Below are positions 4,885 to 47,928 of a DNA stretch of 64,000 nt, piece after piece. Position numbers and translations under genes: made by a program. The notes under the pieces were generated by a model. The model searched no databases. It saw nothing but the letters and a program-made list of their open reading frames with translations, and was not told the DNA's origin. Numbering within the stretch: position 1 is the stretch's first letter; each line of letters begins with the position of its first letter. This stretch comes from Paramacrobiotus metropolitanus (Eukaryota > Tardigrada > Eutardigrada > Parachela > Macrobiotidae), in the NCBI RefSeq assembly GCF_019649055.1, contig NW_026570330.1:62001-126000 (forward strand), written 5' to 3'.

Positions 4885-4888
4885 TGAA

Positions 4889-14077: not shown

Positions 14078-14470
14078 TTACAGACAGACGCCGTGTTGGC
14101 CGACGACCTGGACGCGGCAGATGCCGTTGCAGCAGTGCTCGTCGGCGTAGCAGTAGTTGTTGATGTGCCGGCATTCTGCACGCTTCCGCCGTCCGTGACT
14201 GCGCTGCTCGAAGCCGCCGCCCGCAGAGCGGCCACTCATGTCGATGTAGACGCTGCCTCCTTGTCCGCCCAATCCAATGCCGCCGTGTGCCTGGTTGTTG
14301 TTGGATCCTCCTCCGCCTCCACTTCCACCGCCCTTGATAGCGTTCCCCATCGTTGTCAATCCGGAACCGATACCGACCACTTTGGAAAAGTCGAAAGCAT
14401 TGCTTGTGTGGAAATAGAAACACAAACACACTGCTGCAACCGTCAGATAATTAAACCGTTTCTGATCCAT
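14078..14470 (-). CDS. ICK-1: secreted furin-processed cysteine-knot peptide precursor
   Basis: 130 residues, no intron. Order: a signal peptide of about 25 residues ending near TSNA; a short AFDFSK pro-segment with GIGSGLTT; a Gly/Ser-rich linker; the conserved GGQGGSVYIDMSGR block; a basic cleavage site (RSHGRRKR); then a mature region of about 32 residues with spacing C-X6-C-X5-CC-X3-C-X10-C. That spacing is the classical inhibitor cystine knot pattern of many animal toxins, antimicrobial peptides and signalling peptides. The role here is unknown. The family is defined by this gene and 14 paralogues to position 47928. It belongs to subfamily A (AFDFSK type). It is divergent from ICK-2, with 672 bp between the start codons, and a TATA-like element (TATAAAAG read on the minus strand) lies near 14597. 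In ICK-1 the residue after the fifth Cys is Arg rather than Tyr. Confidence 0.9.
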   Translation of the reverse strand: MDQKRFNYLTVAAVCLCFYFHTSNAFDFSKVVGIGSGLTTMGNAIKGGGSGGGGGSNNNQAHGGIGLGGQGGSVYIDMSGRSAGGGFEQRSHGRRKRAECRHINNYCYADEHCCNGICRVQVVGQHGVCL

Positions 14471-15142
14471 GCTTCCCGGGCAAAGACTACGCTTAAATAT
14501 AGGATTCAGTAAATGCTGCTAAAGAACAAATTAAAGAGACCAATTGATTAAAGGAGGGAATGAAGGTATTGTGCTTCGGTGTGTGCAAGCGTGCTGCTTT
14601 TATACTCGCTTAGTTCCGGTAGTGCCAGGGTTCATTAGTCACTGACCAACGCGTGAGATTCCACTTGATAAGATGCGATCAATGTATTGCTTGAACGGCT
14701 TGCTGTTGCGTGTGATTAAGCAGTTAAGCAGTTGATCGCTGCCGGAAGTATGGTGCATCTGATAATCCTGCACGTGTTTTAGCAATCACCTTTGATTTTT
14801 GCAAAGGTTAGTCTGCATTTCTGCGTGAAGTGTTACACATTTCTTCGAAGGAAGTCGCTAAATTGCTTCATATCCTGTTCTCTATTCCACTTATATCAGT
14901 GACGTCTTCAAGCTTGCTAGCCAACCAGGCTTCCGGTATTGGGACGAATAAAAAGCCTTTCTTAACCGAACGGTTGTCACTTCACGAATTGAATTTTTGC
15001 AAGCGTTTGAACTCGTAACGATTATTCAAGTATCTTTAATAAAATATCTTTAGCATTCCCAGACAAACAGCTACACTTCCTGCATTTTCTTTCGTACGAT
15101 TATATTGTCTGAACGTGCTGACTTTTCACAGTGAATTCCGAG
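14471..15142. promoter_or_regulatory. Shared promoter of ICK-1 and ICK-2
   Basis: A 672-bp divergent spacer. TATA-like sequences face each way (near 14597 on minus, ATAAAAAG near 14949 on plus). A conserved module at about 14740-14830 reads CCGGAAGTATGGTGCATCTG, a GCACGTG E-box, then AGCAATCACCTTTGAT. The module recurs upstream of ICK-3 (inverted), ICK-13 and ICK-15. Confidence 0.6.
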
Positions 15143-15541
15143 ATGTCAGTGACAGCCGTCGTGTCCATGGTGTATCTGTTGGTTTGCGGGCATTTGCTGG
15201 TGTGTGACGCGTGGGGAACGGTTGCCGGTGGAGTGGGACTGGGAATCCTGACTGCACTATCCGGAAGCGGCAGTGGGAACGGAGGTGGAAGTGGAGGAGG
15301 ATCCAACACCAACATCGCCCATGGCGGTTTCGGGCAAGGAGGTCAAGGAGGCAGCGTCTTCATCGACATGAGCGGCCGCTCTTCGGGCGGCAGCAGCGGA
15401 TTCGACCGGCGCAGTCACGGACGGAGGAAGCGTGCTCCATGCCGGACCTTGTACAGCTCCTGCTCCGGCAACGAGCAGTGCTGCAGTCGTCTCTGCAGGG
15501 TCCCCATTGTCGGTCAACCTGGGTATTGCCGAAGCTTTTAA
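15143..15541 (+). CDS. ICK-2: divergent cysteine-knot peptide precursor
   Basis: 132 residues from the ATG at 15143, chosen because a hydrophobic signal follows at once (VYLLVCGHLLVCDAWG). It is subfamily B: the segment after the signal is GTVAGGVGLGILTALSGSG rather than AFDFSK. It keeps the SVFIDMSGR block and the HGRRKR site. The mature sequence is the most divergent of the intact members (APCRTLYSS; SGNEQCCSRLCRVPIVGQ) but has exactly the same cysteine spacing, so selection has kept the fold while other residues changed. It ends with RSF after the last Cys. A polyadenylation-like AATAAA is near 15693. Confidence 0.88.
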   Translation: MSVTAVVSMVYLLVCGHLLVCDAWGTVAGGVGLGILTALSGSGSGNGGGSGGGSNTNIAHGGFGQGGQGGSVFIDMSGRSSGGSSGFDRRSHGRRKRAPCRTLYSSCSGNEQCCSRLCRVPIVGQPGYCRSF

Positions 15542-17282: not shown

Positions 17283-17638
17283 ATGCATTTCCAGCCGTTC
17301 CATTATCTGGCTATTGCAGCAGTGTATTTGTGTTTTTACTGGCAAATGAGCGATGCTTTCAAATTTTCCAAAACGATCGACATCGGTTCCGGATTGACAA
17401 ACATGGGAACCGCCATAAAGGGCGTGGAGGTAGCGGTGGAGGATCCAATACCAACACTGCGCGTGGCGGAGTCGGACTGGGAGGACCGGGCGGCAGCGTC
17501 TTCATCAGTGGGCGCAGCCACGAAGGGTGGAAGCGCGCGGAATGCCGGCACATCAACAACTACTGCTACGTCGACGAGCACTGCTGCAACGGTGTCTGCT
17601 TCGTCCCCGTCACCGGCCAACACGGCGTCTGCCTCTAA
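17283..17638 (+). pseudogene. ICK-3: frameshifted subfamily A cysteine-knot gene
   Basis: The signal and the AFKFSK-like pro-segment are read from 17283. Near 17415-17430, in the glycine-rich DNA, the frame changes, and the cysteine-knot part continues in another frame to 17638. The SVFI...SGR block is shortened and the cleavage site is reduced to a WKR remnant, so even the downstream frame lacks the multi-basic furin site. The six cysteines and their spacing are intact. It is probably a recent pseudogene; a sequencing error could explain the frameshift but not the lost cleavage region. Confidence 0.8.
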
Positions 17639-19307
17639 AATGCCTCAGGCTTCCTTGTGTGCTCTGTTCCTTAAAGATTTACGCTTTCCGTTTTGTTTGT
17701 GATATTTAAACTCTTGCAAACGCTTTTTTGTATGATAATAAAAACCTATGCACTCTCACGGTGGCCGGAAATAGAGGGTGATTTGCTTTGATAAGAATAA
17801 CGCGCAGATACGTTCTAACTGTACTTGTACTGCGAATCCACTGTCTTAAATCATGTAGTAGCAGAAAGCAGGCAACCAACCGAAAGTAGTTACAGCAAGT
17901 ATATGCTAATCCTTTGCGTAATGTTGTTGTAGCTGCGTAATGTAGTTATATACGTACAACAAAACACGAATAATATTGCGGTTTTATTATGTCGACAGAA
18001 GACTTGAAAAAAATAAGGGGAATATACAATACAATGATACAACTCATTTACAAGAGGATGACTTTTAATACTGATCATCCATCTGAGTAAACATACCGGG
18101 AACACAACAACAATAACAACAACAACATCCAGATGCTCCAATTTCTACCCATCATTCTACCATCCATCCATTTCTACCCATCATTATTTCTACCCAAGAG
18201 CTAGTGGCATTGCTATTGGCTACTGATATTGCCTACTGGCATAAGTAAAAAAAGACATAACGTCAACACAATCACAGCAAGCGAAACTCATGATGATGTC
18301 ATTTTCATGCACGGACAAAACTGTATAATTTATAGTAATGCCACGCCTAAAAAATAAATAACTAAGCTAGTTGTGCGCAAAGAGGCACCGGTCAGGCTGT
18401 TTAATACCGTTGTACAGATGCTCAGTTACAAATATGGCCGTAAGATAAACGTCTGCCGTATTACTTGCTATATTACAGTTCTACTTGTACAGTTTTCTAA
18501 TCCCACAATAGGGCACCTAATAATATCAATTTTTTATGCCTGCTTAAGGTCAGTGGCACATTTTTTTGTGCCGCTACGGAAAATATACAGCCTTGTAACT
18601 GCCAAAACGTAGTGCGGCAGAGTCTACAAAGCGCGAAATATATGAAATTGTACCGTGGTAAGTATACTTCACTGACCTGACTATGTACTGCCATCCATAC
18701 TCCTATTAGTCGTCATGCTCAGCAATAGCGGTGAATTACCGCAAAAAGCGTCCCAGCAAGGAACCGATTGCTGTCTTTGCTTTCTCGTTTTTAATTGCTT
18801 TAGGGTGTCAACAACAAAGTTTTCCCGAAAGGTCACCGGGCAGCAGCCGGCACTGGCTTTTATTGTTCATATATCTACTGCTCTTCCACGTTTCGCTGTC
18901 CGGACGCCCAACAATAATATTTACAACTGCTGGGGCAAGTGCCACAGTTGTTGTGGTATCTGCCACATTTAATTATTATTATCGTTATCGTTATTATTTT
19001 ACCGGCTGTTGAGGGTGGTAAGGATGCAAGGCCCCGAATCGCTGTAATTACTATTACTAAAACCGAGAAATACCAGATTACGGTGCGGCCAGATCGCAGG
19101 CCTACTTTATACACAATGTCTCAAACGAACGAAAACCAAAACGAAATTCAGGTTTAGAAGCAGAATGAGCAGCTTCCCGACAAATGAGCCATGTCTGGTA
19201 ATGTGTCTACGTTCAAGGTACGCTGGTCAGAACAAACAGCCACAAACATAGTAAACCGCTTAGACAACATCCGTCCGTTTTAATACACAGCAAAACAGAA
19301 ACCGCCT
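17639..19307. other. Intergenic region, AT-rich, with a CAA/AAC microsatellite
   Basis: A short (AAC)n-type tract lies near 18102-18130 and two close copies of a CATCCATTTCTACCCATCAT word near 18160-18200. Small overlapping ORFs at 18715-19157 include one ending in a cluster of five Cys and one with a hydrophobic start. Neither shows homology to the neighbours and I do not call them genes. Confidence 0.4.
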
Positions 19308-19712
19308 TTACAGACAGACGCCATGTTGACCGACCACCGCGACGTAGCAGATCCCGTTGCAGCAGTGCTCGTCGGCGTAGCAGTAGTTGTTGATGTGCCG
19401 ACACTCCGCGCGCTTCCGCCGTCCGTGACTGCGCCGCTCGAAGCCCGCGCTGCCGCCCGCGGAAGGATGGCCGCTCATGTCAAGATAGACGCTGCCGCCT
19501 TGTCCTCCGTAACCGATTCCGCCATGTGCAACGTTGTTATTGGATCCTCCTCCGCCTCTACCTCCGCTGCCTTTGAATGCGTTTCCCATATTCGTCAATC
19601 CAGCGCCAATACCGACCATTTTAGAAAAATCAAAAGCGCTGCTATTTTGCGGTGAAAAAGAAAGAAGACACACCGCCGAAAAAGTCACAGCAAGTAACAC
19701 AGAGGATCTCAT
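19308..19712 (-). CDS. ICK-4: subfamily A cysteine-knot peptide precursor
   Basis: 134 residues from the Met at 19712 (MRSSVLLAV), the first ATG before the signal peptide. The signal ends near NSSA, then FDFSKMVGIGAGLTN. The linker, SVYLDMSG block, FERRSHGRRKR site and canonical mature knot follow. With ICK-11 and ICK-14 it forms a sub-clade (CLLS..P..SSAFDF) whose members are each divergent from an FPIRLPG peptide gene. Here the partner starts at 20242, with 529 bp between. A TATA-like TATTTAAG reads toward the gene near 19850. Confidence 0.9.
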   Translation of the reverse strand: MRSSVLLAVTFSAVCLLSFSPQNSSAFDFSKMVGIGAGLTNMGNAFKGSGGRGGGGSNNNVAHGGIGYGGQGGSVYLDMSGHPSAGGSAGFERRSHGRRKRAECRHINNYCYADEHCCNGICYVAVVGQHGVCL

Positions 19713-20241
19713 TTTATTAATACACGAAGTCTCTGGTTGGTACGATATCAACAGACTACTGTAATAATATTTCCAGAAAACAAAGTATTATGGGAAAACG
19801 TAAGAGCAGTATTTTGATGGAGAAGAATATCAGCCGCGGCGCTTAAATACCGCTTTGACGGTTGGTTAATGCGTGTGCGATGTTTATCGCCGCTTGTCAG
19901 CCGAGTCAGTTCCGTGTGATGGCATCGCTGCCTGTTAAACGTCGTATCAAGATTTCCGGTTGTTCAAGTCTTGAACTTCAAGGCAGCTGACGCGATGAGC
20001 AGCGGCTGGTGACGGATTCTTTCTAGTTAATCGAAAGGAGATGACGTAAAGTTTGCTGAACCCAGAAACGACTATGTTCCTTTATAAAATGACAGCCTGC
20101 TTTTTGACAGGATATTTGCAAAAGGTTCACCAGCTTCGTTCTCGAACTAAACACATCTGAATCCGTCAAAGTTGGTTGTCGGTTCAGCTGCCTTCTTCTG
20201 AAAACGATTTATAATATTAAATTATAAAGATTTATAAGTCA
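19713..20241. promoter_or_regulatory. Shared promoter of ICK-4 and PIR-1
   Basis: 529 bp. The block containing ACCGCTTTGACGGTTGGTTA, GATGTTTATCG and GTCAGCCGAGTCAGTTCCG (about 19846-19930) is conserved in the 45.5-kb spacer and, inverted, in the 34.8-kb spacer. TTTATAAAAT near 20081 reads toward PIR-1. Confidence 0.6.
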
Positions 20242-20520
20242 ATGATGCCGCAACGCTGCGTGATGTTTGTCTGTTTAGCTATTTGGGCGACGACGGTGTT
20301 CGTAGTCTGCAGCAGGGCCACTACTCTACCCGATGGCTCGAGCACCACGCTTCCGGACACGCCGCACCCAGGCGTCCTCAATGTTGCCCATCATGGTCAC
20401 TCATCTCCCGGTCGTGACGGATCCGCGCGCGTCTTCACCGGGCCCGATGCATCTCCTGAAATGGCTCAGTTTCGAAAGGATTTTTTGAACGCATTCCCCA
20501 TAAGACTGCCGGGCCAGTGA
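20242..20520 (+). CDS. PIR-1: small secreted peptide precursor of an unrecognised family
   Basis: 92 residues. A signal peptide of about 25 residues, a short Thr/Pro-rich segment (TLPDTPHPGVLNVAHHG), then a conserved C-terminal block SPGRDGSARVFTGPD and ASPEMAQFRKDFLNAFPIRL ending PGQ. It has no cysteine knot; its two Cys are in the signal region. Two paralogues (34241-34519 and 45893-46153) share the C-terminal block. Each sits head-to-head with a subfamily A ICK gene, suggesting co-expression. It could be a peptide hormone or a defence or venom component. I do not recognise it. Confidence 0.8.
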   Translation: MMPQRCVMFVCLAIWATTVFVVCSRATTLPDGSSTTLPDTPHPGVLNVAHHGHSSPGRDGSARVFTGPDASPEMAQFRKDFLNAFPIRLPGQ

Positions 20521-21645
20521 TGTCTGTTCCACGACTTTACAGCAATATATCGATCTTATCGGGAACTAAAAGTGGATGCCTCGTTTTCAGTTTGCCAGTT
20601 CGCAAATTTAAGTATCTGTTAGAGTTACATGACCTTTGCGTTAACCCATGTCTGATATATCTTAAATTCCATTTTATGTGCGGGGAATTCTTGAGCGCTG
20701 ATGTTGGTATGTTGTTGGTTTTATTACGACCTTTTAGAAGTTCACTAAACAAAGTAAACTTAAGTTTGTACTCGTATGTCTGATTCTGTTAACGTGTGAT
20801 AAATCCCACGGTCCGTGCCACATTGCAACAGTTTTGCATAACGACCAAACATACTGGATTCTGGTGGGCAGTTAGGCTCCAGTTTACCAAGAAGACTGTG
20901 TTACCAAATAAAATTAATACTAATACAATCTCACACTTCAACTAGAGTAGTCCTCAAACCGTACACACAGACGATGAAACAGTCTGGTTCAACATAAGAC
21001 ACTGAGCAAGCAATTTAACCTCGCAGTAATAATGTTTCGAACGAATATAATATTGTTTCGAATATAATAGTTTCAAACGATCTGCGCTATAATAATTTTG
21101 AAAGCGCGTTAATGCTGGGCTATAACATCCAATAATTCTGCACACTTTTTACGTTCGTACGAAGAGGTAAGGTTTTACTTGTTGCTCTTAACTCTTATTG
21201 CGTGAATAAAAAAGTAAAACCAACTGCGAAGTATTGTATTATGTATGGTTTAATGTTACGTTAAATTTTATTACTTACTTGTTGTTAACCCTAGGCAGCC
21301 AGTATTTGTACTGACTGCTACGTATACTTAAGTACGTGGTAACAGAACATATTGGTAACCAAGACTTGGTTACCGAATTGAGAGCAACAAGTATAACCTT
21401 ATCTCTTCGTAAAACCTTAAACGATACCTCTTACCTTAAGTCACGAATAAGAAAAGTTATAATAGAGGAATACACGCGACCGGGAAGTCGTTCATATACA
21501 CACCAATAGAGCTAAACGCTTTCACGCACGAATACATAACGTCCTCGTTTTATTCATATTTCTCTTCACTGGTTACTGAACATCAGGTGCGTACAAGTCT
21601 GTTAAAGCATCATCATGGATTCACGGCCGACATATTATACAAAAT
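20521..21645. other. Intergenic region holding a MITE
   Basis: Apart from the TA-flanked inverted-repeat element at 21160-21409 I see no gene. Confidence 0.5.
21160..21409. mobile_element. MITE, TA target site (Tc1/mariner-like)
   Basis: Terminal inverted repeats of about 29 bp, starting CGAAGAGGTAAGGTTTTACT and ending with its near-complement (AACCTTATCTCTTCG). TA lies on each side (21158-21159, 21410-21411). 250 bp, with no ORF. Confidence 0.65.
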
Positions 21646-22050
21646 CTAAATACAGACGCCATGTTGACCGACCACTGCCACGTAGCAGATGCCGTTGCAG
21701 CAGTGCTCGTCGGCGTAGCAGTAGTTGTTGATGTGCAAGCACTCCGCGCGCTTCCGCCGCCCGTGACTGCGCCGCTCGAAGCCAGCGCTGCCGCCCGCGG
21801 AGGGACGCCCGCTAATATCGATGTACACACTGCCTCCTTGACCTCCGTAACCGATTCCGCCATTGGCGACGTTGTGGTTGGATCCTCCTCCGCCGCCTCC
21901 GTTTCCACTGCCACTACCGGACAAAGCCGTCAGGATGCCCAGTCCTACTCCCCCAGCAACCGTTCCCCACGCGTCACACACCAACAGATGCCCGCAAATC
22001 AACAGATACAGCACCGACACGGCGCCAGCCATCGACATTCCGGAATGCAT
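21646..22050 (-). CDS. ICK-5: subfamily B cysteine-knot peptide precursor
   Basis: 134 residues from the Met at 22050 (MHSGMSMAG), the ATG that places the hydrophobic signal (VLYLLICGHLLVCDAWG) properly. An upstream in-frame extension is unlikely to be used. The B-type segment GTVAGGVGLGILTALSGSG precedes a Gly linker, SVYIDISGR, the HGRRKR site and the canonical knot. The residue after the first Cys is Leu, not Arg. It is divergent from ICK-6 with 697 bp between. TTTTTATC near 22209-22216 on the plus strand is the minus-strand TATA-like box. Confidence 0.9.
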   Translation of the reverse strand: MHSGMSMAGAVSVLYLLICGHLLVCDAWGTVAGGVGLGILTALSGSGSGNGGGGGGSNHNVANGGIGYGGQGGSVYIDISGRPSAGGSAGFERRSHGRRKRAECLHINNYCYADEHCCNGICYVAVVGQHGVCI

Positions 22051-22747
22051 AGTGAATGAAAACTGAGAATTGTGCAGGAGAAGAAAATTAGCTGTAAATC
22101 GCTCCACACCCACTCGACGCCACGAATAGTGTTGCTATAAATTTTGGAAGTAGTTTAATATATTTTTGTAAATCGTTCTTCAAAGTGCGAGTCAGTGTTG
22201 CTAAGAAGTGGCTTTTTATCTGGAGAAAACCAGGACCTGGGCGTGAGCACGAAAACCAGGACCTGGGCGTGAATCACCGCGTGAATAATTCAAATAAACG
22301 CATTTCAGCTTACCTGTATATCACGCGATAATTTCGCACGCGTTCCCAGAGATTTCAGATAACCGTGAGAAATGTGCAACATTGCTAGCGTACTTGTAGA
22401 CAGCTCGTACTTCCGGTAATAACCAGCTGTATTTCGAATGATACCGCTGATTACGGAGCATTGCTCATTGCACTGATACAGCGTAGAGTCGTAGACCGGT
22501 AAGTGGTCGCATCTAATTGATTAACGATCGCGTGACGTACTAGCGCATGTGCCTACAGATAAAATCATTTTTCCACGGAAGTGACGCAAAACAGGAGAAT
22601 GAGGGAGTACGGGTAACGGTGTATTTAAACAACTGCCCGATTAGCCGCTTCAGTTACTTGGCAGTTTTAATAGTCATTTCTTTTGAGCAGCATTTACGAC
22701 TATTAAAGTCCGTAATCAATCCAGCACTGTTTAGTCTGCTTTTAAAG
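22051..22747. promoter_or_regulatory. Shared promoter of ICK-5 and ICK-6
   Basis: 697 bp. The module GATAACCGTGAGAAATGTGC followed by AACA (about 22358-22382) also occurs in the ICK-7/8 spacer and, inverted, in the ICK-9/10 spacer. The word ACCAGGACCTGGGCGTGA is tandemly duplicated near 22230-22272. TATTTAAA near 22622 precedes ICK-6 by about 125 bp. Confidence 0.6.
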
Positions 22748-23161
22748 ATGGATTTGCGATTGCTCAATCTACAGATAGTCGGTATTGCGACGCTATGTTT
22801 ATGCTCTTTTTATATTGACCAAAGTAGTGCTTTCGATTTTTCCAAAATGGTTGGGATCGGCTCCGGATTGACGACCATCGGGAACGCCTTCAAGGGCAAC
22901 GGAGGAGGCGGAGGGGGAGGGGGTTCCAATAGCAACGTGGCACACGGCGGTTCCGGATACGGAGGAGGCGGAGGCAGTGTGTACATCGACATGAGCGGGC
23001 GTCCCTCCGCGGGCGGCAGCGCAGGCTTCGAGCGGCGCAGTCACGGACGGCGGAAGCGCGCGGAATGCCGGCACATCAACAACTACTGCTACGCCGACGA
23101 GCACTGCTGCAACGGCATCTGCTACGTCCCCGTCGTCGGCCAACACGGCGTTTGCATTTAG
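22748..23161 (+). CDS. ICK-6: subfamily A cysteine-knot peptide precursor
   Basis: 137 residues from 22748 (MDLRLLNL). The signal ends near QSSA, followed by FDFSKMVGIGSGLTT. The glycine tract is long, and the block before SVYIDMSGR is GGGGG instead of GGQGG. The mature knot is canonical (AECRHINNYCYADE, HCCNGICYVPVVGQ). It is very similar to ICK-9 (same MDLRLL start). AATAAA lies about 25 bp after the stop. Confidence 0.92.
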   Translation: MDLRLLNLQIVGIATLCLCSFYIDQSSAFDFSKMVGIGSGLTTIGNAFKGNGGGGGGGGSNSNVAHGGSGYGGGGGSVYIDMSGRPSAGGSAGFERRSHGRRKRAECRHINNYCYADEHCCNGICYVPVVGQHGVCI

Positions 23162-24701
23162 GCATTTAGACAAACTTGTTCATTTAATAAAGTTTAATAC
23201 AGACATTTATGTATCAATGTACCATAATGGAATCAGCAAATACAAAGTTTGTGGATATTAACCATTGACTGCTCAGTGTGGTTGTCTTTGGTCGCATCAT
23301 AATAAAAGCAGCAAGAAGAAAACAGCAAGCAGCGTTTTACGGTTTCGGTTCATATTTTTATGGGTTCTTAAGCGCGTACTATTACTACGCTTTCGAACAG
23401 TACATTTTGTCTATTAAAGCTGTCCTCCCTGTTGCGATTACTTGCTCTGACTGACCACCATACATGGAGTTCCTGGCTCTAAAGGATGGAAGGTGACCTC
23501 ATGGGTCTTCTTCCATCCTACATAGAGTAACTCTTTGGAAGCGCTGCAAAGCTAATTAGAGTCAAGATGCTTCACCATTTCGTCCACAAATTATGTACGT
23601 GCATCGAGTTCTCGACCACTCGAGTAGGGATGCGAGGAGCTTCGGCTGCGCTTTCAGGTCGTGTGCGGTATCCGCTTTCATATCATTTACCCTCCCGTTC
23701 GCAGTGTCCCTGCTTGCCGCAGTTCTTGCAGGCGAGCTCCTTCACCCATTCCGTCCTGGTCTGCTGGGTGAAGCCGCAACCGTCGCATACGCTTCCGGTG
23801 CCTCCACCCGCAAGGGCCGCCTATCGGGGCCGGCGCCGCGCCACGCCTGTCGGCCACGTCCGCTGCCACGGTTTCTGCTTCGCGCGCCACCACCACGGCG
23901 CCCGTTGTCCACGCGAGCCACATGAAGCGCCATATTGCCTTTCCTGCTGCTCTTCCGGAGTTCGCCCTCCTTGCAGATCTATGGAGCCTTCGCCATTGTT
24001 TTGTAGGCTTGCGATTGTAGGTAATGGCGCGTAGCGTCGCTGGCGATTCCGTTCAGGAAATTGCGCACATTTTCTCCTTGAGCACGACAGGGAAGTCGTC
24101 CGGATTGCCCGGAAGACGGGGAATAACGTCTTTCCAGCACTGACGCCGAGTTAGTCCAGTAAGAGGCACTTCTGCTCCTCAGTGCCATTGACCTTGCAGA
24201 GCCTAACGTAGTTGCTGAACTGAAAATGCCAACACCGCCAGGTCGTCTTGGACAGTTCAGACTCAATCAGGACAGATTTAGCATTCTCGCTGAATGTCAT
24301 AGGGCTTGCTGTCGGCGTCGGGTCAGGTATTGCGATAAAAAGGTGGACCGCGTGAGGTCGTAAGACTTCATGCCAGTTTGTCACGACGTGGAGAAATAAT
24401 TGAGTCTTTACTGAAACACGTAGGGTGGTTAGTAATATGTTCAGCGAGCCAAAAAATACAGCTGAACGCGGTTCCTGTGTGAAAGGCCACATGCGCATCT
24501 GACACTTTACTATTCTGCTTTATTTATTTGAAAAAATGACCTACGCAAAAGCACGGAATCAGAAGTGTAGTTAAGAGGTACATAGAGCATCAAACACTGA
24601 GTAAACTGATACAATGCTTAACTGGAAAATGTGAATACCTTATTGCAAAGCACAGAATGCAACAGTAGCGATACAGAGACCACTAAGAAATCAGAAGACT
24701 T
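23162..24701. other. Intergenic region with a decayed retroelement
   Basis: It holds the gag fragment at about 23690-24300 and, near 23500-23580, a word (AGCGCTGCAAAGCT and a GATGCTTCACCATTT tail) that recurs inverted near 26840-26900. That may be the end of a dispersed element. Confidence 0.45.
23690..24300 (-). pseudogene. Decayed retrotransposon gag fragment
   Basis: Read on the minus strand, the 24300 end encodes a gag-like helix pattern (TWRCWHFQFSNYVRLC, then EEQKCLLLDSLG), which fits the W-x2-W-x3-F-x2-Y...LL-x2-LG signature of gypsy Gag. About 400 bp on is a zinc-knuckle-like piece (ACKNCGKQGHCE) near 23705-23740. Frames are broken between them and there is no LTR or pol nearby. Confidence 0.5.
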
Positions 24702-25091
24702 TTAGATGCAGACGCCGTCTTGGCCGACGATGGGAGCGTAGCAGATGCCGTTGCAGCAGTGTTCGTCGACGTAGCAGTAGTTGTTGATGTGCCGGCATTC
24801 CGCGCGCTTCCGCCGTCCGTGACTGCGCCGCTCGAAGCCAGCGCTGCCGCCCGCGGAAGGACGCCCACTCATGTCGATGTAAACGCTGCCACCTTGACCT
24901 CCATAGCCAATGCCGCCGTGTGCGACGTTGCGGTTGGATCCGCCTCCGCCGCCTCCGTTTCCGCTGCCACTCCCGGATAACGCAGTCAGGATACCCAGTC
25001 CCACTCCCCCCCCGGCCACCGTCCTTAACGCATCATAAACCAGGAAGTGTCCGCAAACTAACAGATACACCACCGATCGGACGCCCGCCAT
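24702..25091 (-). CDS. ICK-7: subfamily B cysteine-knot peptide precursor
   Basis: 129 residues from the Met at 25091 (MAGVRSVVYLL). Comparison with ICK-5 shows that the ancestral start (MHSG) lies just upstream but is now out of frame, so the start appears to have moved to the internal ATG, shortening the signal. The cleavage site is intact. The mature part differs at YVDE and YAPIVGQDGVC, where Asp replaces the usual His. It is divergent from ICK-8 with 721 bp between, and a TATATAAA box faces the gene near 25340. Confidence 0.88.
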   Translation of the reverse strand: MAGVRSVVYLLVCGHFLVYDALRTVAGGGVGLGILTALSGSGSGNGGGGGGSNRNVAHGGIGYGGQGGSVYIDMSGRPSAGGSAGFERRSHGRRKRAECRHINNYCYVDEHCCNGICYAPIVGQDGVCI

Positions 25092-25812: not shown

Positions 25813-26205
25813 ATGATGGAGTTTCAAATGCGCAACAACGCCGTGGTTTTGGTGCTATGCATCTTAGGTTTCTCCTCCTTAACTGCTGCGGTTTGGAGTC
25901 CTCCTCCCTTCTCACTTAACCCCTTCCCCGGACACCACTGGGTGCCGGTACCAGCGGGAGCGTCGCCCAGCGCTGCCGGCCATTCCAACTCCGCGGGCGG
26001 TGGCAGTGGCTACGGAGGTCATGGAGGCCGTGTCTACCTCGACATGAGCGGCCGCTCTGCGGGCGGCGGCTTCGAGCGGCGCAGTCACGGACGGCGGAAG
26101 CGCGCGGAATGCCGGCACATAAACAACTACTGCTACGCCGACGAGCACTGCTGCAACGGCGTCTGCTACGTCGCCGTCGTCGGCCAACACGGCGTCTGCA
26201 TATAG
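25813..26205 (+). CDS. ICK-8: cysteine-knot peptide precursor with a distinct propeptide
   Basis: 130 residues. The signal (VVLVLCILGFSSLTAAVW) and the following segment (SPPPFSLNPFPGHHW, then Pro/Ala/Ser) match neither subfamily A nor B. From GGHGGRVYLDMSGR onward it rejoins the family: HGRRKR site and canonical knot. This looks like the same mature-peptide cassette joined to another pre-pro region, by recombination, gene conversion or rapid divergence. An in-frame ATG at 25816 could also be the start. Confidence 0.88.
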   Translation: MMEFQMRNNAVVLVLCILGFSSLTAAVWSPPPFSLNPFPGHHWVPVPAGASPSAAGHSNSAGGGSGYGGHGGRVYLDMSGRSAGGGFERRSHGRRKRAECRHINNYCYADEHCCNGVCYVAVVGQHGVCI

Positions 26206-27331: not shown

Positions 27332-27733
27332 CTAAATACACACTCCGTGTTGACCTGTGACGGGGACGTAGCAGATGCCGTTGCAGCAGTGTTCGTCGGC
27401 GTAGCAGTAGTTGTTGATGTGCCGGCATTCCGCGCGCTTCCGCCGTCCGTGACTGCGTCGCTCGAAGCCCGCGCTGCCGCCCGCGGAGGGACGCCCACTC
27501 ATGTCGATGTACACACTGCCTCCTTGTCCTCCGTATCCGGAACCGCCGTGTGCCACGTTGCTATTGGATCCTCCTCCGCCTCCGCCTCCTCCGTTGCCCT
27601 TGAAAGCGTTCCCGATGGTCGTCAATCCGGAGCCGATGCCCACCATTTTGGAAAAATCTAAAGCACTACTGGTGTGAATATAAAAAGCGCACAGCATTGC
27701 AACACCAACTACACTGAGCAATCGCAAATCCAT
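27332..27733 (-). CDS. ICK-9: subfamily A cysteine-knot peptide precursor
   Basis: 133 residues starting MDLRLLSVVG. The signal ends near TSSA, followed by LDFSKMVGIGSGLTT. Nine consecutive Gly precede SNSNVAHGG. The cleavage site and mature knot are canonical (YVPVTGQHGVC). It is a close sister of ICK-6. It is divergent from ICK-10 with 687 bp between, and a TATTTAAG box faces the gene near 27865. Confidence 0.92.
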   Translation of the reverse strand: MDLRLLSVVGVAMLCAFYIHTSSALDFSKMVGIGSGLTTIGNAFKGNGGGGGGGGSNSNVAHGGSGYGGQGGSVYIDMSGRPSAGGSAGFERRSHGRRKRAECRHINNYCYADEHCCNGICYVPVTGQHGVCI

Positions 27734-32590: not shown

Positions 32591-32599
32591 TACATTTCA

Positions 32600-34240: not shown

Positions 34241-34519
34241 TCACTGGCCCGGCAGTCTTATAGGGAATGCATTCAAGAAATCCTTTCGGAACTGAGCCAT
34301 TTCAGGAGACGCATCAGGCCCAGTGAAGACGCGCACGGAGCCGTCACGACCGGGCGAGGAGAGACCATGGTGAGCGACGTTGAGGGCGCCTGGGTGTGGC
34401 GTATCCGGAAACGCGTTTCCCCAGCTTGGGGGTGAAGATGCGGCGCGACCACTGACTACAAGCACAGTCGCCGCCCAAACCGCCAAGCAGGTCACAGAAA
34501 CCATGAAAAGCTGCGGCAT
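34241..34519 (-). CDS. PIR-2: small secreted peptide precursor
   Basis: 92 residues (MPQLFMVSVTCLAVWAATVL start). The signal is followed by an Ala/Ser/Pro segment, FPDTPHPGALNVAHHG, and the conserved GRDGSVRVFTGPD to FPIRLPGQ block. It differs from PIR-1 mainly in the signal and the next 20 residues. It is head-to-head with ICK-11, 449 bp between the starts. A TATAAAAG box faces it near 34595. Confidence 0.82.
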   Translation of the reverse strand: MPQLFMVSVTCLAVWAATVLVVSGRAASSPPSWGNAFPDTPHPGALNVAHHGLSSPGRDGSVRVFTGPDASPEMAQFRKDFLNAFPIRLPGQ

Positions 34520-34968: not shown

Positions 34969-35373
34969 ATGGCAACCTCTGTTTCCCTTCTTGCGATTCT
35001 GTCAGCGCTGTGCCTGCTTTCGTTATTTCCATCAAATAGCAGTGCATTTGATTTCTCCAAAATGGTGGGCATCGGCTCCGGACTGACTACCATCGGGAAC
35101 GCGTTCAAGGGCAACGGAGGTGGAGGCGGAGGGGGTTCCAATAGCAATGTTGCACACGGCGGTTCCGGATACGGAGGACAAGGAGGCAGCGTCTACATCG
35201 ATATGAGCGGACGTCCTTCCGCGGGCGGCAGTGCGGGTTTCGAGCGGCGCAGTCATCGACGGCGGAAGCGCGCGAAGTGCCGGCACAGTAACAACTACTG
35301 CTACGCCGACGAGCACTGTGGCAACGGCATCTGCTACGTCACCGTCGTCGGTCAACATGGCGTTTGTTTTTAA
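34969..35373 (+). CDS. ICK-11: subfamily A precursor with a lost cysteine
   Basis: 134 residues. Signal MATSVSLLAILSALCLLSLF ending near SNSSA, then FDFSKMVGIGSGLTT. The cleavage site is SHRRRKR (Arg for Gly). The mature part has KC for EC, RHSNN for RHINN and, most important, DEHCGNG in place of DEHCCNG: the TGCTGC codon pair is TGTGGC, removing the fourth cysteine. Five cysteines remain, so one knot disulfide cannot form. The frame is otherwise open. It may be a gene at the start of decay or one with a changed fold. Confidence 0.88.
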   Translation: MATSVSLLAILSALCLLSLFPSNSSAFDFSKMVGIGSGLTTIGNAFKGNGGGGGGGSNSNVAHGGSGYGGQGGSVYIDMSGRPSAGGSAGFERRSHRRRKRAKCRHSNNYCYADEHCGNGICYVTVVGQHGVCF

Positions 35374-36750: not shown

Positions 36751-37098
36751 ATGGATTTTCTACGATTTATTACGCTGGCTGTTGTGACACTATGGCTACG
36801 TTTGTGCGTAATTCCAACGAGCCACGCCAATCTAGCTTTGTATCCCAGATGGCCGCCTTTGGCCATATCGTCGGCACAATATCCAGATGGAAGCAGTAGC
36901 ATTTCCAGCTCCGGAGGCGGTGGCGTCGGGATGAGCGGCCGACCGGCAGCGGGCAGCAGCAGCTTCCAACGACGCAGTCAGGGGCGGCGGAAGCGCGCGG
37001 AGTGCCGGCACATCAACAACTACTGCTACGCCGACGAGCACTGCTGCAACGGCGTCTGCCACGTCGCCGTCGTCGGCCAACACGGCGTCTGCATTTAA
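36751..37098 (+). CDS. ICK-12: cysteine-knot precursor with its own pre-pro region
   Basis: 115 residues from the ATG at 36751 (MDFLRFITLA). An in-frame ATG at 36718 exists, but the DNA around 36735-36753 (CCCGGGGAGCATGGA) is conserved non-coding leader before ICK-1 and resembles that before ICK-3, so 36751 is preferred. The signal ends near SHA. The propeptide (NLALYPRWPPL, Ser-rich) has lost the GGQGGSVYID block and keeps only GVGMSGRPA. The site is RRSQGRRKR and the knot is canonical with CHVAVVGQ. No divergent partner is seen. Confidence 0.85.
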   Translation: MDFLRFITLAVVTLWLRLCVIPTSHANLALYPRWPPLAISSAQYPDGSSSISSSGGGGVGMSGRPAAGSSSFQRRSQGRRKRAECRHINNYCYADEHCCNGVCHVAVVGQHGVCI

Positions 37099-38978: not shown

Positions 38979-39320
38979 ATGCACGTCAGAGTCGGCGCTG
39001 TGTCCGTGGTGTGTCTGTTACTGTGCAGCCATTTTCTGCCGTGTGACGCTTTTGTCAACATCCTGACTGATTTATTCGGCGGTGGCAATAATGGCGGTGG
39101 TAATAGAGGAGGCGGAGGAGTATCTAACCGCAACGAGGCACACGGTGGCATCGGATTGGGCGGACAGGGAGGCAGCGTCTACATCGACATGAGCGGTCGT
39201 TCTGGCAGCGGAAACAGCGGATTCGAACGGCGCAGTCACGGACGGCGGAAGCGGAATGCCGACGCGGTAACAACTACAGCCATACCGACGAGCAGCGATG
39301 CTACGGTGTTTGCATCTTAA
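38979..39320 (+). CDS. ICK-13: family member whose knottin frame is shifted to a Thr-rich tail
   Basis: 113 residues (MHVRVGAVSVVCLLLCSHFL). The signal is related to subfamily B, the pro-segment is Gly/Asn-rich, and the GGQGGSVYIDMSGR block and FERRSHGRRKR site are intact. Directly after RKR the DNA still resembles the knottin exon but lacks about four bases, so it is read in another frame: NADAVTTTAIPTSSDATVF, no cysteines. The frame stays open to a stop at 39320. ICK-15 shares the change, so it predates their duplication and both have kept an ORF. Either a new peptide made by frame change or a shared pseudogene. Confidence 0.75.
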   Translation: MHVRVGAVSVVCLLLCSHFLPCDAFVNILTDLFGGGNNGGGNRGGGGVSNRNEAHGGIGLGGQGGSVYIDMSGRSGSGNSGFERRSHGRRKRNADAVTTTAIPTSSDATVFAS

Positions 39321-41062: not shown

Positions 41063-42664
41063 CATGCATGACGATAAAAAATACTGGTCAGTCGCTTTGC
41101 GGGTCAAAAATTGAATGATGAAACCGTGGAGTGGGCAGCAAGGCATATCCACTAAGTATAAATCGCCGGCCGGCACTGAGTTCGAACAAGGAAACCGTTG
41201 TTTGTGCATTACGCATCAAAACGAGACATTTACATTTATGGGCCGAGTTACTGGGCAGAGTTGTCAGGGTGGTACCGACTGTAATGCCAGCGATGGAACA
41301 CGAATTAAGAACCAGCACATAAATACTTCGGCGTTTTTGGCATTCCGGACATTTTCACAATATGGACTGGCGTTCCGAAGGTACCGGGCACCAGACACAC
41401 ACATTGTATTTTGTGCGCAGTGCCACATGCCATACACTTTTCAACAAATGGTCAAGCGATAATACTGTCTTGCACTAGCCTGCACACGAGATAAAAAAAA
41501 ACTATCAAGTTTAACGCCGAAAATACCCTGTGTCCGGTACGCGAATTCTTGTAATAACAGTGTCCGGAATGGGATAAAAGCCGAAAGTACAGGCAGTCAA
41601 CGTTTTCCGGTCGTCTTAGGAAAACATTGACTGCAAGCAGAATACACCTTGTGCATGACATAACTTTGTGCATGACGTAGCTTTGTGCCCGTATTAGCTA
41701 CAGCATTTCTGTGCCGTGTTGCTTCTGTATTGTACGTATTACCGAGTACTGTTGTTGAACGGAGTGTGGAGACTTGCCTAGCCTAGCATATATTTTGATG
41801 TTCATCGCGAGTAAGGATATGTGATAGTGCCTGTTGACAGGCTTGGCTACTCAATAAACCATCAATCAATCGTACCTGTTCAGCTGAATACACGCACACA
41901 ACGTTCAACAGCCCGAACGACAGGACATACGTCACCAGGGCGATAACTAAGTCGGTTGATGGCTGTTGGCCGGCCGGCAGCCAACTATCATCGAATGTCT
42001 TCCCAATAATTCCCGCTACCGCCGCAAAGCAGCGCACCCCGGCAACAGTCGACAGACACTCCGCCAAATCGCGCACAATGCCGGCCAGCTGTGATTGGCG
42101 AACATAATCGTCAACAGCCACCAATCCCGCGCTGACCACTTGCTGACGCAGATGCACCGTCGCCCGCTGCACAATAACGCTGGTGCTGATGATGACAAAC
42201 ACGAGAAACCCAAGCAACAGGTCCCGGCCGAGATATGTCACATCGATCATGGCCAGGGAGATGTGTGCCCACCAGCCAATCAGCCAGGGCGGGGCTTTCA
42301 GGAAGAAATAAGTGACAGTCGACATCACCGTCTGCCGGTGGAAGAAGAAATAGGCGCTCTTACCGAAAGGCGAAAGCTATGGCTATGAAAGCCCAAGTGC
42401 CTGCAACGTACAGCCGCAGGTCGTGGCGCGTTATTAGCGAGCCGTAATGCTGATCGAGATTTTTGATCAGTTCAACGATTCTCTGGCTGGATCTCTGCAT
42501 AAGAACGATGCACACTAAGTTAGGCAGGAGCTCCGATATGTCGACCAGCTGGATAACGACGGACGTGAACCAGCTGCGGAATTGTCCGGAAGAGAACATG
42601 TAGATGTCCAGATAAGCCGAGTAACCGTACGAACCCAGAATGATTGTCAGGTAGGTATACATGG

Positions 42665-43457
42665 TAGAGCCCTGCACGAGCCGAGCAGCTCGGCTCGGCT
42701 CACGAGCGCTCGCCGCTCGCGAGCGCTTCGAGCGAGCAGACGCCGTTTTGCGTTTTTGCGAACGAGCTGAGCATCAGGAAAAAATTAGCGAGCGAGCCGA
42801 ACGAGCAGGACAGTCGGATGCGAGCGATCCCGAGCTGACCGCCTCATATTGTGCGATCCGAAGAAACTTCTACAAGAAATTGCGTAAAAGAGCTCCAAAG
42901 CCTTAATCCACCGCCAGCTTCGCTTCGCGCGAGCACGTTTTCACTGTGGACTGTGGTTTTGTTAACACGATGCTAGCGACAGTTCGGTAGCTAACATAAG
43001 AGTACAGAGACAACCTTAAGAATCTTTCTGTGGTATCATTCAAAGTGCTTGTTACACAAGGGTCAGAGATGAAATTTGATTTCGAAACCAGGAAATTCTG
43101 TTGGTAAAAAACGAAACCACCATAAAAAAAAGTGCCTGGGTGGAGGTTAAGTAGAAAAACCATAGACCAGCCACCAAAGTGCTCCTAGCAAAAATCAAAT
43201 TTAGTAAAAGCTAGTCGCCTACAACAAATTTTTTAAATTTTGGTCTATGTGAAATTTTTTTGTCGAGCTTACGAGCGAGCCGATTTTTGACCATAACAAA
43301 ATACGAGCGAGTTGAACGAGCTGGAACAAAGAAAAATTGAAAAACGAGCGAGTTGAGCGAGCAGAGGTTTGAGCGCGAGCGAGCTGAGCGAGCAGGAAAT
43401 TGTGAAAAACTCAAATGAGCGAGTCGAGCAGCACTTTTGCTGCTCGTGCAGGGCTCT
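42665..43457. mobile_element. hAT-type non-autonomous element, copy 1, in GRL-A exon 1
   Basis: Terminal inverted repeats TAGAGCCCTGCACGAGC and 8-bp target duplications ATACATGG (42657-42664, 43458-43465), the hAT signature. 793 bp. Subterminal arrays of GAGCGAG(C/T)-like words at both ends; the interior has no transposase. Nearly identical to copy 2 in the opposite orientation. Confidence 0.9.
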
Positions 43458-43575
43458 AATACATGGTGTAGCGCAGGAGGCGTGCCGACTTGTTTTCGCA
43501 AGGATAAGCGAAATACCCACACGTCTGCAGTAAAATGGCCCACGTGCGAGTAATATTCCAAATACTGATCTGCAT

Positions 43576-44153: not shown

Positions 44154-44161
44154 ATTAGCAG

Positions 44162-44959
44162 TAGAGCCCTGCACGAGCAGCAAAAGTGCTGCTCGACTCG
44201 CTCATTTGAGTTTTTCACAATTTCCTGCTCGCTCAGCTCGCTCGCGCTCAAACCTCTGCTCGCTCAACTCGCTCGTTTTTCAATTTTTCTTTGTTCCAGC
44301 TCGTTCAACTCGCTCGTATTTGTTATGGTCAAAAATCGGCTCGCTCGTAAGCTCGACAAAAAAATTTCACATAGACCAAAATTTAAAAAATTTGTTGTAG
44401 GCGACTAGCTTTTACTAAATTTGATTTTTGCTAGGAGCACTTTGGTGGCTGGTCTATGGTTTTTCTACTTAACCTCCACCCAGGCACTTTTTTTTATGGT
44501 GGTTTCGTTTTTTACCAACAGAATTTCCTGGTTTCGAAATCAAATTTCATCTCTGACCCTTGTGTAACAAGCACTTTGAATGATACCACAGAAAGATTCT
44601 TAAGGTTGTCTCTGTACTCTTATGTTAGCTACCGAACTGTCGCTAGCATCGTGTTAACAAAAACCACAGTCCACAGTGAAAACGTGCTCGCGCGAAGCGC
44701 GAAGCTGGCGGTGGATTAAGGCTTTTGGAGCTCTTTTTACGCAATTTCTTGTAGAAGTTTCTTCGGATCGCACAATATGAGGCGGTCAGCTCGGGATCGC
44801 TCGCATCCGACTGTCCTGCTCGTTCGGCTCGCTCGCTAATTTTTTCCTGATGCTCAGCTCGTTCGCAAAAACGCAAAACGGCGTCTGCTCGCTCGAAGCG
44901 CTCGCGAGCGGCGAGCGCTCGTGAGCCGAGCCGAGCTGCTCGGCTCGTGCAGGGCTCTA
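44162..44959. mobile_element. hAT-type non-autonomous element, copy 2
   Basis: 798 bp, same ends as copy 1, inverted relative to it. Target duplications ATTAGCAG at 44154-44161 and 44960-44967. It lies just downstream of ICK-14, on that gene's 3' side. Confidence 0.9.
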
Positions 44960-45025
44960 ATTAGCAGGAAAATTGTCAAGGAAGATCTTTCGGAAAGACA
45001 GCGAGCAGCAAAACAAAGGCTGATT

Positions 45026-45400
45026 TTACAGACAGACGCCGTGTTGGCCGGTGACGGGGACGTAGCAGATGCCGTTGCAGCAGTGCTCGTCGGCATAGCA
45101 GTAGTTGTTGATGTGCCGGCATTCCGCGCGCTTCCGCCGCCCCTGACTGCCCCCATTGATGTAGACGCTGCCGCCCTGTCCTCCAAAACCAACACCGCCG
45201 TGTGCTATGGTGGTGTTGCATCCACCGCTTCCACCTGAAGATCCTCCGGGCGGATTCATCCCGTTCCGTATGGTCGTCAATCCGGAGCCGATGCTGACTA
45301 ACTTCGCAAAATCGAAGGCGCTGCTATGGGATGGATATAACGAAAGAAGACACAGTATCGACAGAGCAACGGCAATAGAAACTGGCAGTGCCATTTTCAT
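45026..45400 (-). CDS. ICK-14: subfamily A cysteine-knot peptide precursor
   Basis: 124 residues (MKMALPVSIAVALSILCLLS). Signal ends near SHSSA, then FDFAKLVSIGSGLTT. The propeptide carries an extra cysteine (GGCNTTIAHGG), unique in the family, and the segment between SVYI and the cleavage site is shortened to NGGSQGRRKR. The mature knot is canonical (YVPVTGQ). Divergent from PIR-3, 492 bp between. A hAT copy ends 66 bp past the stop. Confidence 0.9.
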   Translation of the reverse strand: MKMALPVSIAVALSILCLLSLYPSHSSAFDFAKLVSIGSGLTTIRNGMNPPGGSSGGSGGCNTTIAHGGVGFGGQGGSVYINGGSQGRRKRAECRHINNYCYADEHCCNGICYVPVTGQHGVCL

Positions 45401-45892: not shown

Positions 45893-46153
45893 ATGATGTT
45901 TGCAGCGTGCTTTGTGATACTGGCGGCAACGGGGTTCAGTATCTGCCCCGCCCGTCCCTCTGACGATTGGATCGGGCTGGATTCGGACAATCACCGCATG
46001 TCCAGCGCCGACGTTGTCAACATCGCTTACCAGTCTTGGCCAGGTGGAGACGGGTCTGTGCGCGTCTTCACCGGATCCGATGCGGCACCTGAATTGGCTC
46101 GGTTTCGAAATGAGTTTTTGAAGGCATTCCCCATAAGACTGCCCGGCTTGTGA
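45893..46153 (+). CDS. PIR-3: divergent member of the FPIRLPG peptide family
   Basis: 86 residues from the first ATG (45893, MMFAACFVILAAT). The open frame extends five codons upstream to a GTG where PIR-1 has ATG, so the start codon may have been lost and replaced by an internal one. The middle has changed (DDWIGLDSDNHRMSS) while GGDGSVRVFTGSDAAPELAR and FPIRLPGL are kept, showing that the C-terminal block is the constrained part and likely the active peptide. Confidence 0.75.
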   Translation: MMFAACFVILAATGFSICPARPSDDWIGLDSDNHRMSSADVVNIAYQSWPGGDGSVRVFTGSDAAPELARFRNEFLKAFPIRLPGL

Positions 46154-47547
46154 TGCCGCTGTCGTCTCCAACAACATTATATATCGTCCAACTCACTGCT
46201 CGAAGGCGCATGGATCGGTTTTCGTGTGGCGTGGCAAAAATGTTGTGATTTGTCTTGTTAACTTTTTTCTTTGGCATTTGGCATTCGTCCGTTAACTGAA
46301 GTCACTTAAATTTGCGTGAGTAAAGTTGCTGAGTTTGATGGTTCTGAAGAGCGCTAAATAATGTAAGGTATCTGCGAGCGCTAAATAATGTAAGGTATCT
46401 GCGTTTAATAAACGTCCTGCGAAAAACAAGTGCGCTGTTTTGTCTTTGCTTTCGAAATACCTTTATACAGATAGGCAAACTCGCTACACAAAATTAACGA
46501 CATAGCAGTACTGCAGGTTACTTGTGTCGAAGAGCTCGGTACAAGCTGTTTTGTAGCTGATTTCACGTTGAGCACAACTGCCACATGTTATCTTGCCACA
46601 TTTCCGGTTTCTCAGTTTTCAGCATTATGTATTCAGTTAGATGAACGTCACGAGAAACGGCATGTTACAGAGCCTTCTTATTATCTCGGCAGGAACCTTC
46701 TCACAAATTGGCATTATGACTGTATTTACCACGGGGTACGATGTCATGGCATATGGTCATCGAATTTTTCGTATTTTTGAATTCGATTATTCGATTCTCG
46801 GTTATTCGATTCAAATGGGGACATCGAAAAAGCCACGACGTCCGTCCTTGTAAAATCTTTTACACTTTAGACAGATAAGAGGAGATATGAACTCATGGAA
46901 GAAAAAGAAGGTAACTAGACAAGAAAGAAATGCTTCCTTGCAGCGAAGGTACTAGTACTAATAAAACATAGCAAATCATACTCACAAGTTACAACAGTCA
47001 ATATCGTATCCTTTCTTTAGCCACTCGGCTACACGTGAGATTACAGCTTATAAGACGCCATCAGTGTATGTATTGCTTGTGCGGCATTATGTTGCGTTGG
47101 ATTACAGTCAGTGTATCACTTGTTCAGCTGCTGCTACCGGAAATATGATGCATCCGATAAGATCGCACGTGTTTTAGCAATTATCCTTGATCTCTGAAAA
47201 AGGCTAGTTAGCATTTCTGCGGAAGATGTTACACATTTCTTCGAACGAGTGGTGAAGTCCCTCGATTTTTCTAACTTCCTGTACAGAGTACACTTACAGT
47301 TATCTGCCGCTTCAACTGTTTCGTCAAGTGCATTGATCAACGCAACTTCCGGATTTGGAACAATATAAAGCCGTCCTTGAATAGTTGCAACTTCACAGTT
47401 CACGCATCGATTTTCTTTTCGAAGCGTTTTTCCACCTGACTAGTAACCGACAAGGTAGTCAAATATCCAAATTACTTGCGACAAGCAGCATCGCGTAGTA
47501 CTTCTTCCAGTGCCCTTATAGCGTTAGCACTCGCTGAACCTTCCAGA
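46154..47547. other. Intergenic region and ICK-15 promoter
   Basis: A tandem duplication of 27 bp (GAGCGCTAAATAATGTAAGG plus TATCTGC) lies near 46350-46402. The CCGGAAATATGATGCATCCG, GCACGTG and TATCCTTGAT module is at about 47145-47200. AATATAAAGCCG near 47370 is the TATA-like box. Confidence 0.55.
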
Positions 47548-47928
47548 ATGCACGTCAGAATGGGCGCTGTGTCCGTAGTGTGTCTGTTATTGTGCAGCCA
47601 TTTTCTGACGTGTGACGCTTTCAGCATCTGGACTAGTTTATTCGGCGGCGACAACAACGGAGGCGGCAGTAACGGTGGAGGAGGCGGAGGAGTATCTAAC
47701 CGCAACGAGGCACACGGCGGCGTCGGATTGGGCGGACAGGGAGGCAGCGTTTACATCGACATGAGCGGCCGTTCTGGAAGCGGCAACAGCGGATTCGAGC
47801 GGCGCAGTCACGGACGGCGGAAGCGGAATGCCGACACCGTAACAACTACTGCGGCACCGACGGACAGCGGTGCAACAACGTCTCCATCGTTCATGGTGTC
47901 GAACAGTACGGTGTTTGCCGCCTCTTAA
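47548..47928 (+). CDS. ICK-15: second family member with the frame-shifted Thr-rich tail
   Basis: 126 residues from 47548 (MHVRMGAVSVVCLLLCSHFL). As in ICK-13 everything up to FERRSHGRRKR is canonical and the DNA after it is a frame-shifted knottin exon: NADTVTTTAAPTDSGATTSP, then SFMVSNSTVFAAS. The tail is 12 residues longer than in ICK-13. A separate in-frame stretch upstream of 47548 is not conserved and is not coding. Confidence 0.78.
   Translation: MHVRMGAVSVVCLLLCSHFLTCDAFSIWTSLFGGDNNGGGSNGGGGGGVSNRNEAHGGVGLGGQGGSVYIDMSGRSGSGNSGFERRSHGRRKRNADTVTTTAAPTDSGATTSPSFMVSNSTVFAAS

Follow-up and report, generated by a model that had tools for sequence, protein, structure and literature searches.

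A window of 64,000 nucleotides from the tardigrade Paramacrobiotus metropolitanus, located on the contig here termed C110, carries a cluster of short genes whose products, together with relatives elsewhere in the genome, probably constitute a lineage-specific family of convertase-activated, secreted effectors aimed at other organisms, a description that covers both defence and saliva. The genes share a common structure, are under coding constraint, stand mostly in head-to-head pairs, have multiplied by duplication and have exchanged mature regions between leaders. The pairing, the mirror duplication, the swapping of leaders and a Cys-free partner family with a common propeptide block are new relative to an earlier, sequence-only reading of this DNA, which described 15 genes for cysteine-knot peptides in 34 kb.

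Gene structure and extent of the family

An intact gene encodes a signal-like N-terminus, a propeptide that is rich in Gly and holds a conserved block, a GRRKR site and a C-terminal peptide of approximately 33 residues with six Cys. All 15 loci noted earlier, at 14078-47928, are present in both the open-frame list and a pattern-based catalogue, which covered the window and its flanks (62 kb upstream and 20 kb downstream) as well as 29 kb of contig C9 and 10 kb of contig C47. The cluster is nevertheless larger than was claimed. Relatives occur upstream of the window on the same contig (C110:23-61 kb), and a genome search with five queries places the family on C110 from about 23 to 110 kb, on C9 from about 1,270 to 1,298 kb, and, as a single gene, on C47. 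Weak matches on C36 (E 0.005) and C64 (E 3.5e-5, confined to the N-terminal part of the C47 protein) each contain three stops. With the Cys-free type IV genes included, the window holds 18 family loci. Two start codons were chosen by the authors: the gene noted with a start at 22547 more likely begins at 22748, and that noted at 36718 more likely begins at 36751.

The individual elements are less uniform than first described. The block and the convertase site had been ascribed to all 15 genes; an SVYID-like block (SVYIDMSGR) is in frame in 13 and RRKR, the R-X-K/R-R site preceding the mature part, is present in 14, since 17283 lacks RRKR and neither 17283 nor 36751 has the block in frame. Type II genes lack such a site. 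As DNA content, the earlier counts stand, with the 32-residue region in 13 loci and six Cys codons in 12, but the signal, propeptide and all six Cys lie in one open frame in only 11 of the 15. The strict spacing C-X6-C-X5-CC-X3-C-X10-C occurs 12 times in the six frames of the window and in none of 200 trinucleotide-block shuffles. All 24 family proteins examined have a hydrophobic N-terminus, with peak Kyte-Doolittle values of 1.99 to 3.23, a measure of hydropathy alone with no control set, and are putatively secreted. The term "furin-processed" is likewise a reading of the motif.

Coding constraint

Among 14 type I genes (91 pairs), drawn from the window, the upstream region and C9, with the five-Cys gene 34969 included and broken copies excluded, the mature region has a synonymous divergence (dS) of 0.41, a nonsynonymous divergence (dN) of 0.06 and a dN/dS ratio (omega) of 0.15. 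Omega is 0.16 in the block, 0.24 in the linker and 0.35 in the leader, where dS is near saturation. All 11 duplicate pairs compared in the wider family are least conserved at codon position 3, two genes each being used in two pairs. The sequence-only reading had allowed that the frames might be repeats without coding constraint, and the ratio and the third-position pattern contradict this. Gene conversion lowers dN and dS alike, and alone it should not yield such a ratio. Flank identity failed as a neutral ruler, the global aligner returning about 0.70 even for shuffled flanks, and constraint was therefore judged by codon positions and dN/dS. In the seven genes with A-type leaders, omega is 0.17 in the leader and 0.42 in the mature region; these genes look conotoxin-like in that contrast, which derives in part from cassette exchange.

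Head-to-head pairs and duplication

Adjacent loci among the 18 in the window are divergent in seven cases, convergent in six and tandem in four. The divergent gaps between start codons span 449-721 bp, and the ten other gaps are all at least 1,125 bp. A rank test (P 5e-5) and a strand shuffle (P 0.0098) support the pairing, although these values overstate significance, because the pairs arose partly by duplication and are not independent events. Upstream, where type II is paired with type III, one divergent pair is short (648 bp) and two are longer (1,388 and 2,066 bp); C9 has one divergent pair with a broken partner, whose edge was set by the authors.

Features of the window (coordinates; strand; description; evidence)
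14078-14470; minus; type I gene with B-type leader, head-to-head with 15143; open frame, catalogue, intergenic comparison
14471-15142; no strand; intergenic region of 672 bp in a head-to-head pair, like that of the upstream pair 57666/58716 (66.7% over 685); BLAST
15143-15541; plus; A-type leader with divergent, cationic six-Cys mature peptide (+3); catalogue, charge
17283-17702; plus; relative with a broken frame, the Cys region being out of frame with the signal, RRKR absent; catalogue
19284-20860; no strand; mirror duplication, outer left arm, matching 35397-33938 on the opposite strand (68.7% over 1597); alignment
19308-19712; minus; type I behind a B-type leader, head-to-head with 20242; catalogue
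20242-20520; plus; type IV, Cys-free, secreted-looking partner with the common propeptide block; genome search, block comparison
21637-23259; no strand; mirror duplication, inner left arm, matching 28829-27235 on the opposite strand (76.3% over 1682); alignment
21646-22050; minus; mosaic, A-type leader with type I mature region, paired with 22748; window identities, trees
22748-23161; plus; type I, B-type leader; catalogue
24702-25091; minus; mosaic, A-type leader with type I mature region, paired with 25813; window identities, trees
25813-26205; plus; type I mature region behind a third, unrelated leader; catalogue, identities
27332-27733; minus; type I behind a B-type leader, head-to-head with 28421 and mirror copy of 22748; duplication alignment
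28421-28819; plus; mosaic, type I on A-type leader, mirror copy of 21646; duplication alignment, identities
34241-34519; minus; Cys-free partner of type IV, head-to-head with 34969 and mirror copy of 20242; genome search, duplication alignment
34969-35373; plus; mirror copy of 19308, type I with one of the six Cys missing; duplication alignment, catalogue
36751-37098; plus; type I with fourth leader, block mostly gone, RRKR and six Cys retained; catalogue, identities
38979-39320; plus; leader, block and RRKR retained, frame switch to a Thr/Ser-rich, Cys-free tail; catalogue
45026-45400; minus; type I behind a B-type leader, linker shortened, head-to-head with 45893; catalogue
45893-46153; plus; type IV, Cys-free partner; genome search
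47548-47928; plus; like 38979, Thr/Ser-rich tail following RRKR; catalogue

Two pairs recur as mirror copies: 21646/22748 matches 27332/28421 (76.3% over 1,682 bp), and 19308/20242 matches 34969/34241 (68.7% over 1,597 bp). A further copy of the latter unit, 45026/45893, lies in direct orientation (63.2% over 1,271). Between the mirror arms, at 30512-33561, lie fragments that by eye resemble the remains of a non-LTR (long terminal repeat) retroelement; two fragments scanned from this interval had no Pfam match. Such an insertion would explain the unequal spacing of the arms.

Of the 11 intergenic regions within divergent pairs, ten, all on C110, fall into three similarity groups, within which BLAST pieces are 60-79% identical; BLAST found no match between the C9 region and these ten. 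One of the 11 contains a kB-like site. Downstream of the genes, AATAAA occurs within 250 bp in 15 of 28 family members, compared to 18.5% of random windows.

Exchange of mature regions between leaders

The leaders of 21646, 24702 and 28421 match those of A-leader genes (0.71-0.95 by window), while their mature regions match B-leader genes (0.72-0.96). The reverse comparisons are lower, at 0.25-0.42 for the portion of the leader ahead of the Gly-rich stretch and 0.50-0.62 for the mature part. In all three mosaics, the switch point is in or after the block. Leader and C-terminal trees of 21 genes, with the three frame-switched genes excluded, reject each other (approximately unbiased test, p-AU 2.8e-67 and 1.5e-8), the first value being inflated because unrelated leaders were aligned. 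In 25813 and 36751, the type I cassette lies behind two further leaders. The locus offers a clear example from nature of peptide cassettes being exchanged between leaders.

Types of mature peptide

The earlier proposal of one secreted-peptide system holds insofar as the genes form a related, secreted-looking, convertase-motif six-Cys family under purifying selection, but it yields several products. Type I, the common type, is acidic, with a net charge of -2 and -1 in the two sequences computed. Type II, which shares the block, ranges from 0 to +5; type III has a last loop of four residues and a charge of +5. The products of 15143 and of the upstream gene 58716 carry +3 and +6, respectively, the latter with a last loop of 18 residues. 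On C47 (C47:195135-196236), a type I-like six-Cys domain follows an Arg-rich site and a different secreted-looking N-terminus; this predicted gene has two exons in the authors' reading, and no relative of the fusion protein was found in the protein database at E 1. Across the ten sequences whose charge was computed, the C47 fusion (-1) and the two type I peptides are negative and the remaining seven range from 0 to +6.

Type IV (20242, 34241 and 45893, the three genome matches) has no Cys domain and shares the propeptide block: the block of 34241 agrees with that of type I at 9 of 23 residues (shuffled P 2e-5). Three further genes share a switch of reading frame downstream of the convertase site: 38979-39320 and 47548-47928 in the window and C110:60392-60751 upstream. 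Their Thr/Ser-rich tails, of 21, 33 and 28 residues, end in a similar short motif, and the old Cys frame has decayed. Omega in these genes, from three pairs only, is 0.13 in the block and 0.11 in the linker, which hints at a continuing importance of the propeptide or of the new tail.

Fold and relationship to known families

The knottin signature consists of six Cys in the order C..C..CC..C..C with characteristic loops; disulfides 1-4, 2-5 and 3-6 would form the knot. Nine representatives of six mature types all have six Cys and fixed loops of 6-5-0-3, with a last loop of 4, 10 or 18 residues, the last of these (in 58716) being long for a knottin. Some types share just one of 14 non-Cys residues between the first and fifth Cys. 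A cystine-knot fold is likely, judging from the Cys spacing and from four fixed loops followed by a variable one across such diverged types. The spacing had already been identified as the inhibitor cystine knot (ICK) pattern; 11 of the 15 loci and the nine representatives show it, which supports the knot indirectly, and the AlphaFold models are too weak to interpret.

The Pfam scan took in six of the 15 window loci, the three type IV genes, one gene each of types II and III, and the C47 fusion, and among these proteins no family reached its curated cut-off. The closest scores were to Toxin_29 (19.7 of 25 bits, a window gene) and Conotoxin (21.7 of 25.1, the C47 fusion), with UPF0506, Omega-toxin and Conotoxin_I2 also below threshold. 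Five proteins searched against NCBIfam gave one hit, at E 0.6, which is noise. Single mature sequences found nothing significant in the PDB (best E 0.3 for type I, 0.72 for C47 and 0.25 for type II). A profile (A1) listed five PDB chains, four spider toxins and one venom polypeptide (best E 0.042); these chains and the sub-threshold Pfam families are presumably knottins. A second profile (A2), built from 20 family members, 12 from the window and eight from outside, matched mostly antibody single-chain fragments through its Gly-rich part, in the authors' reading a composition artefact.

Against protein sequences, profile A2 retrieved one protein at E of 1 or below among 7,981 scored candidates, LOC129597870 of P. 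metropolitanus, which is the upstream gene C110:58716 (58716-59141) save for its last residues. As no other member was found in the database searched, annotation has probably passed over most of them, though the search would also miss a merged gene model beyond its length limits. The single-sequence search of the protein database found no relative, and as it failed to find even LOC129597870, absence there is weak evidence. The sequence-only reading did not recall a family with this propeptide, and the members scanned matched no described family in Pfam, NCBIfam or the protein database. Two-finger-fold secreted proteins are recorded from tardigrades among other phyla, and the knot among conotoxin folds, in the available text of PMC12236594. 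No report of a tardigrade knottin was found among the literature matches listed, whose coverage excludes subscription journals, and the present family may be the first with a cystine knot to be described from Tardigrada.

Proposed mode of action

In the model considered here, the precursor would be cut after RRKR in the secretory pathway, setting free a compact peptide that resists proteases and would bind an external or membrane target. The two precursors of a head-to-head pair are probably transcribed together as a cocktail, the partner of a type I precursor being another type I, a cationic type or the Cys-free type IV; upstream, type II is combined with type III. The locus grew by duplication of pairs, mirror duplication included, and recombination in or just after the block placed the type I cassette behind different leaders. 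It may even be, though this is a tentative suggestion, that the locus is combinatorial, with paired co-expression, one knottin cassette on at least four leaders and new products (type IV and the frame-switched tails of three copies) making up an immune or feeding arsenal.

Several observations weigh against an effector family of this kind. Its commonest peptide, type I, is acidic and conserved, unlike a typical antimicrobial or fast-evolving venom peptide, and the C9 type II peptide has a net charge of 0. BLAST among the 11 intergenic regions found no match between the three groups, and no shared promoter motif emerged: in a scan with two long regions trimmed to 750 bp, the best 8-mer occurred in 6 of 11 regions, a result that 2 of 100 shuffle sets equalled or exceeded, and homology alone could account for the sharing. 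AATAAA is absent within 250 bp downstream of 13 of the 28 genes. The structure prediction proposed as a check produced models too weak to interpret from two window-only alignments (13 and 12 rows; pLDDT 68.2 and 63.0, pTM 0.33 and 0.30); the first had no fold match, its single Foldseek match in the PDB being at E 9.1, with none from VIA-align. Finally, the model of the sole database member stops before the sixth Cys, apparently truncated by a predicted splice site near its end, whereas the unspliced frame keeps six.

Defence, saliva and other roles

Within the effector reading, immune defence is a possible role, placed slightly ahead of stylet-gland saliva. Arthropod defensins and clustered antimicrobial peptide genes with convertase sites are, as here, small secreted precursors with a basic site before the mature part, present in multi-gene clusters. 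However, the Pfam-scanned proteins include no match to a defensin profile, the commonest product of this family is not cationic, and, compared to clustered antimicrobial genes, ten of the 11 intergenic regions scanned lack a kB-like site.

A somewhat less probable branch is saliva or venom from the stylet glands, with peptides injected into prey or food cells, where they would block ion channels or disturb membranes. Paramacrobiotus feeds on rotifers and nematodes, although no statement on its diet was found in the literature passages checked. The knottin spacing, the sub-threshold likeness to spider, cone-snail and other venom peptides, and the leader/mature contrast of the A-leader genes would fit such a role. 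Venom ICK precursors (Toxin_29, Conotoxin, Omega-toxin) resemble the family in C-X6-C-X5-CC-X3-C-Xn-C, signal, propeptide, basic site and C-terminal peptide; the family differs in scoring below their curated cut-offs, in a Gly-rich propeptide with its own block, and in its conserved acidic type I, head-to-head pairs and Cys-free partners. The near-invariance of type I, the most numerous product, is the opposite of a venom arms race. Tardigrades are absent among the literature matches listed, and PMC4280546 does not mention them.

Endogenous signalling peptides, hormone-like or agouti-like knottins whose many copies raise the dose of one ligand, are an unlikely alternative, although conservation of type I over 14 genes with four different leaders implies that selection kept one product, and a convertase site and propeptide are usual in hormones. 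Agouti and AgRP ligands share the propeptide, basic site and C-terminal Cys-rich domain but carry more Cys, and the proteins scanned gave no Pfam match to that family. Bombyxin-type insect hormone genes are similarly intronless, numerous and in opposed orientations, but their fold and the organisation of their precursors are unrelated. A hormone would be unusual in having so many copies, some of them dead, divergent cationic types (+3 to +6) and almost no database relatives. On the strength of copy number, cationic types and scarcity of relatives, effector roles are preferred over signalling, although the conservation and acidity of type I point the other way.

Still less probable are reproductive or egg-associated secreted proteins, such as male-biased seminal peptides. 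Lineage-specific, multi-copy secreted peptides are common among male-biased genes. In P. metropolitanus itself, the available text of Sugiura et al. 2024 (PMC11191345) describes male bias in about 2,000 genes, with a focus on 29 loci, which lends this idea some support. The weakest alternative, functionless repeats decaying after tandem and mirror duplication with frames open by chance, can point to one frame-broken locus, three frame-switched ones (two in the window), a five-Cys copy and a single member in the protein database, but is already contradicted by the substitution pattern (omega 0.15-0.16 in the mature region and block, and the third codon position) and by a Cys framework preserved across diverged types.

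Neighbouring elements

The cluster adjoins a region (2136-12936) of long, gag-pol-like open frames, with a reverse transcriptase and integrase-like reading by eye, that looks like an LTR retrotransposon. Copies of a large family that by eye appears multi-pass and chemoreceptor-like lie at 41783-42662, 53210-54133 and 60211-61521. The frame at 60214-61521 has 69 genome matches, many on contig C53, and no Pfam match; for the frame at 41786-42325, the sole Pfam trace is a sub-threshold YebO hit. Near-identical open frames in opposite orientation at 42903-43163 and 44456-44719 (MVFLLNLHPGTFF...) form a small inverted duplication.

Implications for tardigrade biology

Little is known of how tardigrades defend themselves against microbes or subdue their food. 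In the available text of a survey of tardigrade immune genes (PMC7056985), canonical Toll-pathway components are apparently lacking, the JNK pathway is kept, and the existence of novel antimicrobial peptides is left open. A constrained, multi-copy, secreted-looking and probably knotted family is a concrete candidate.

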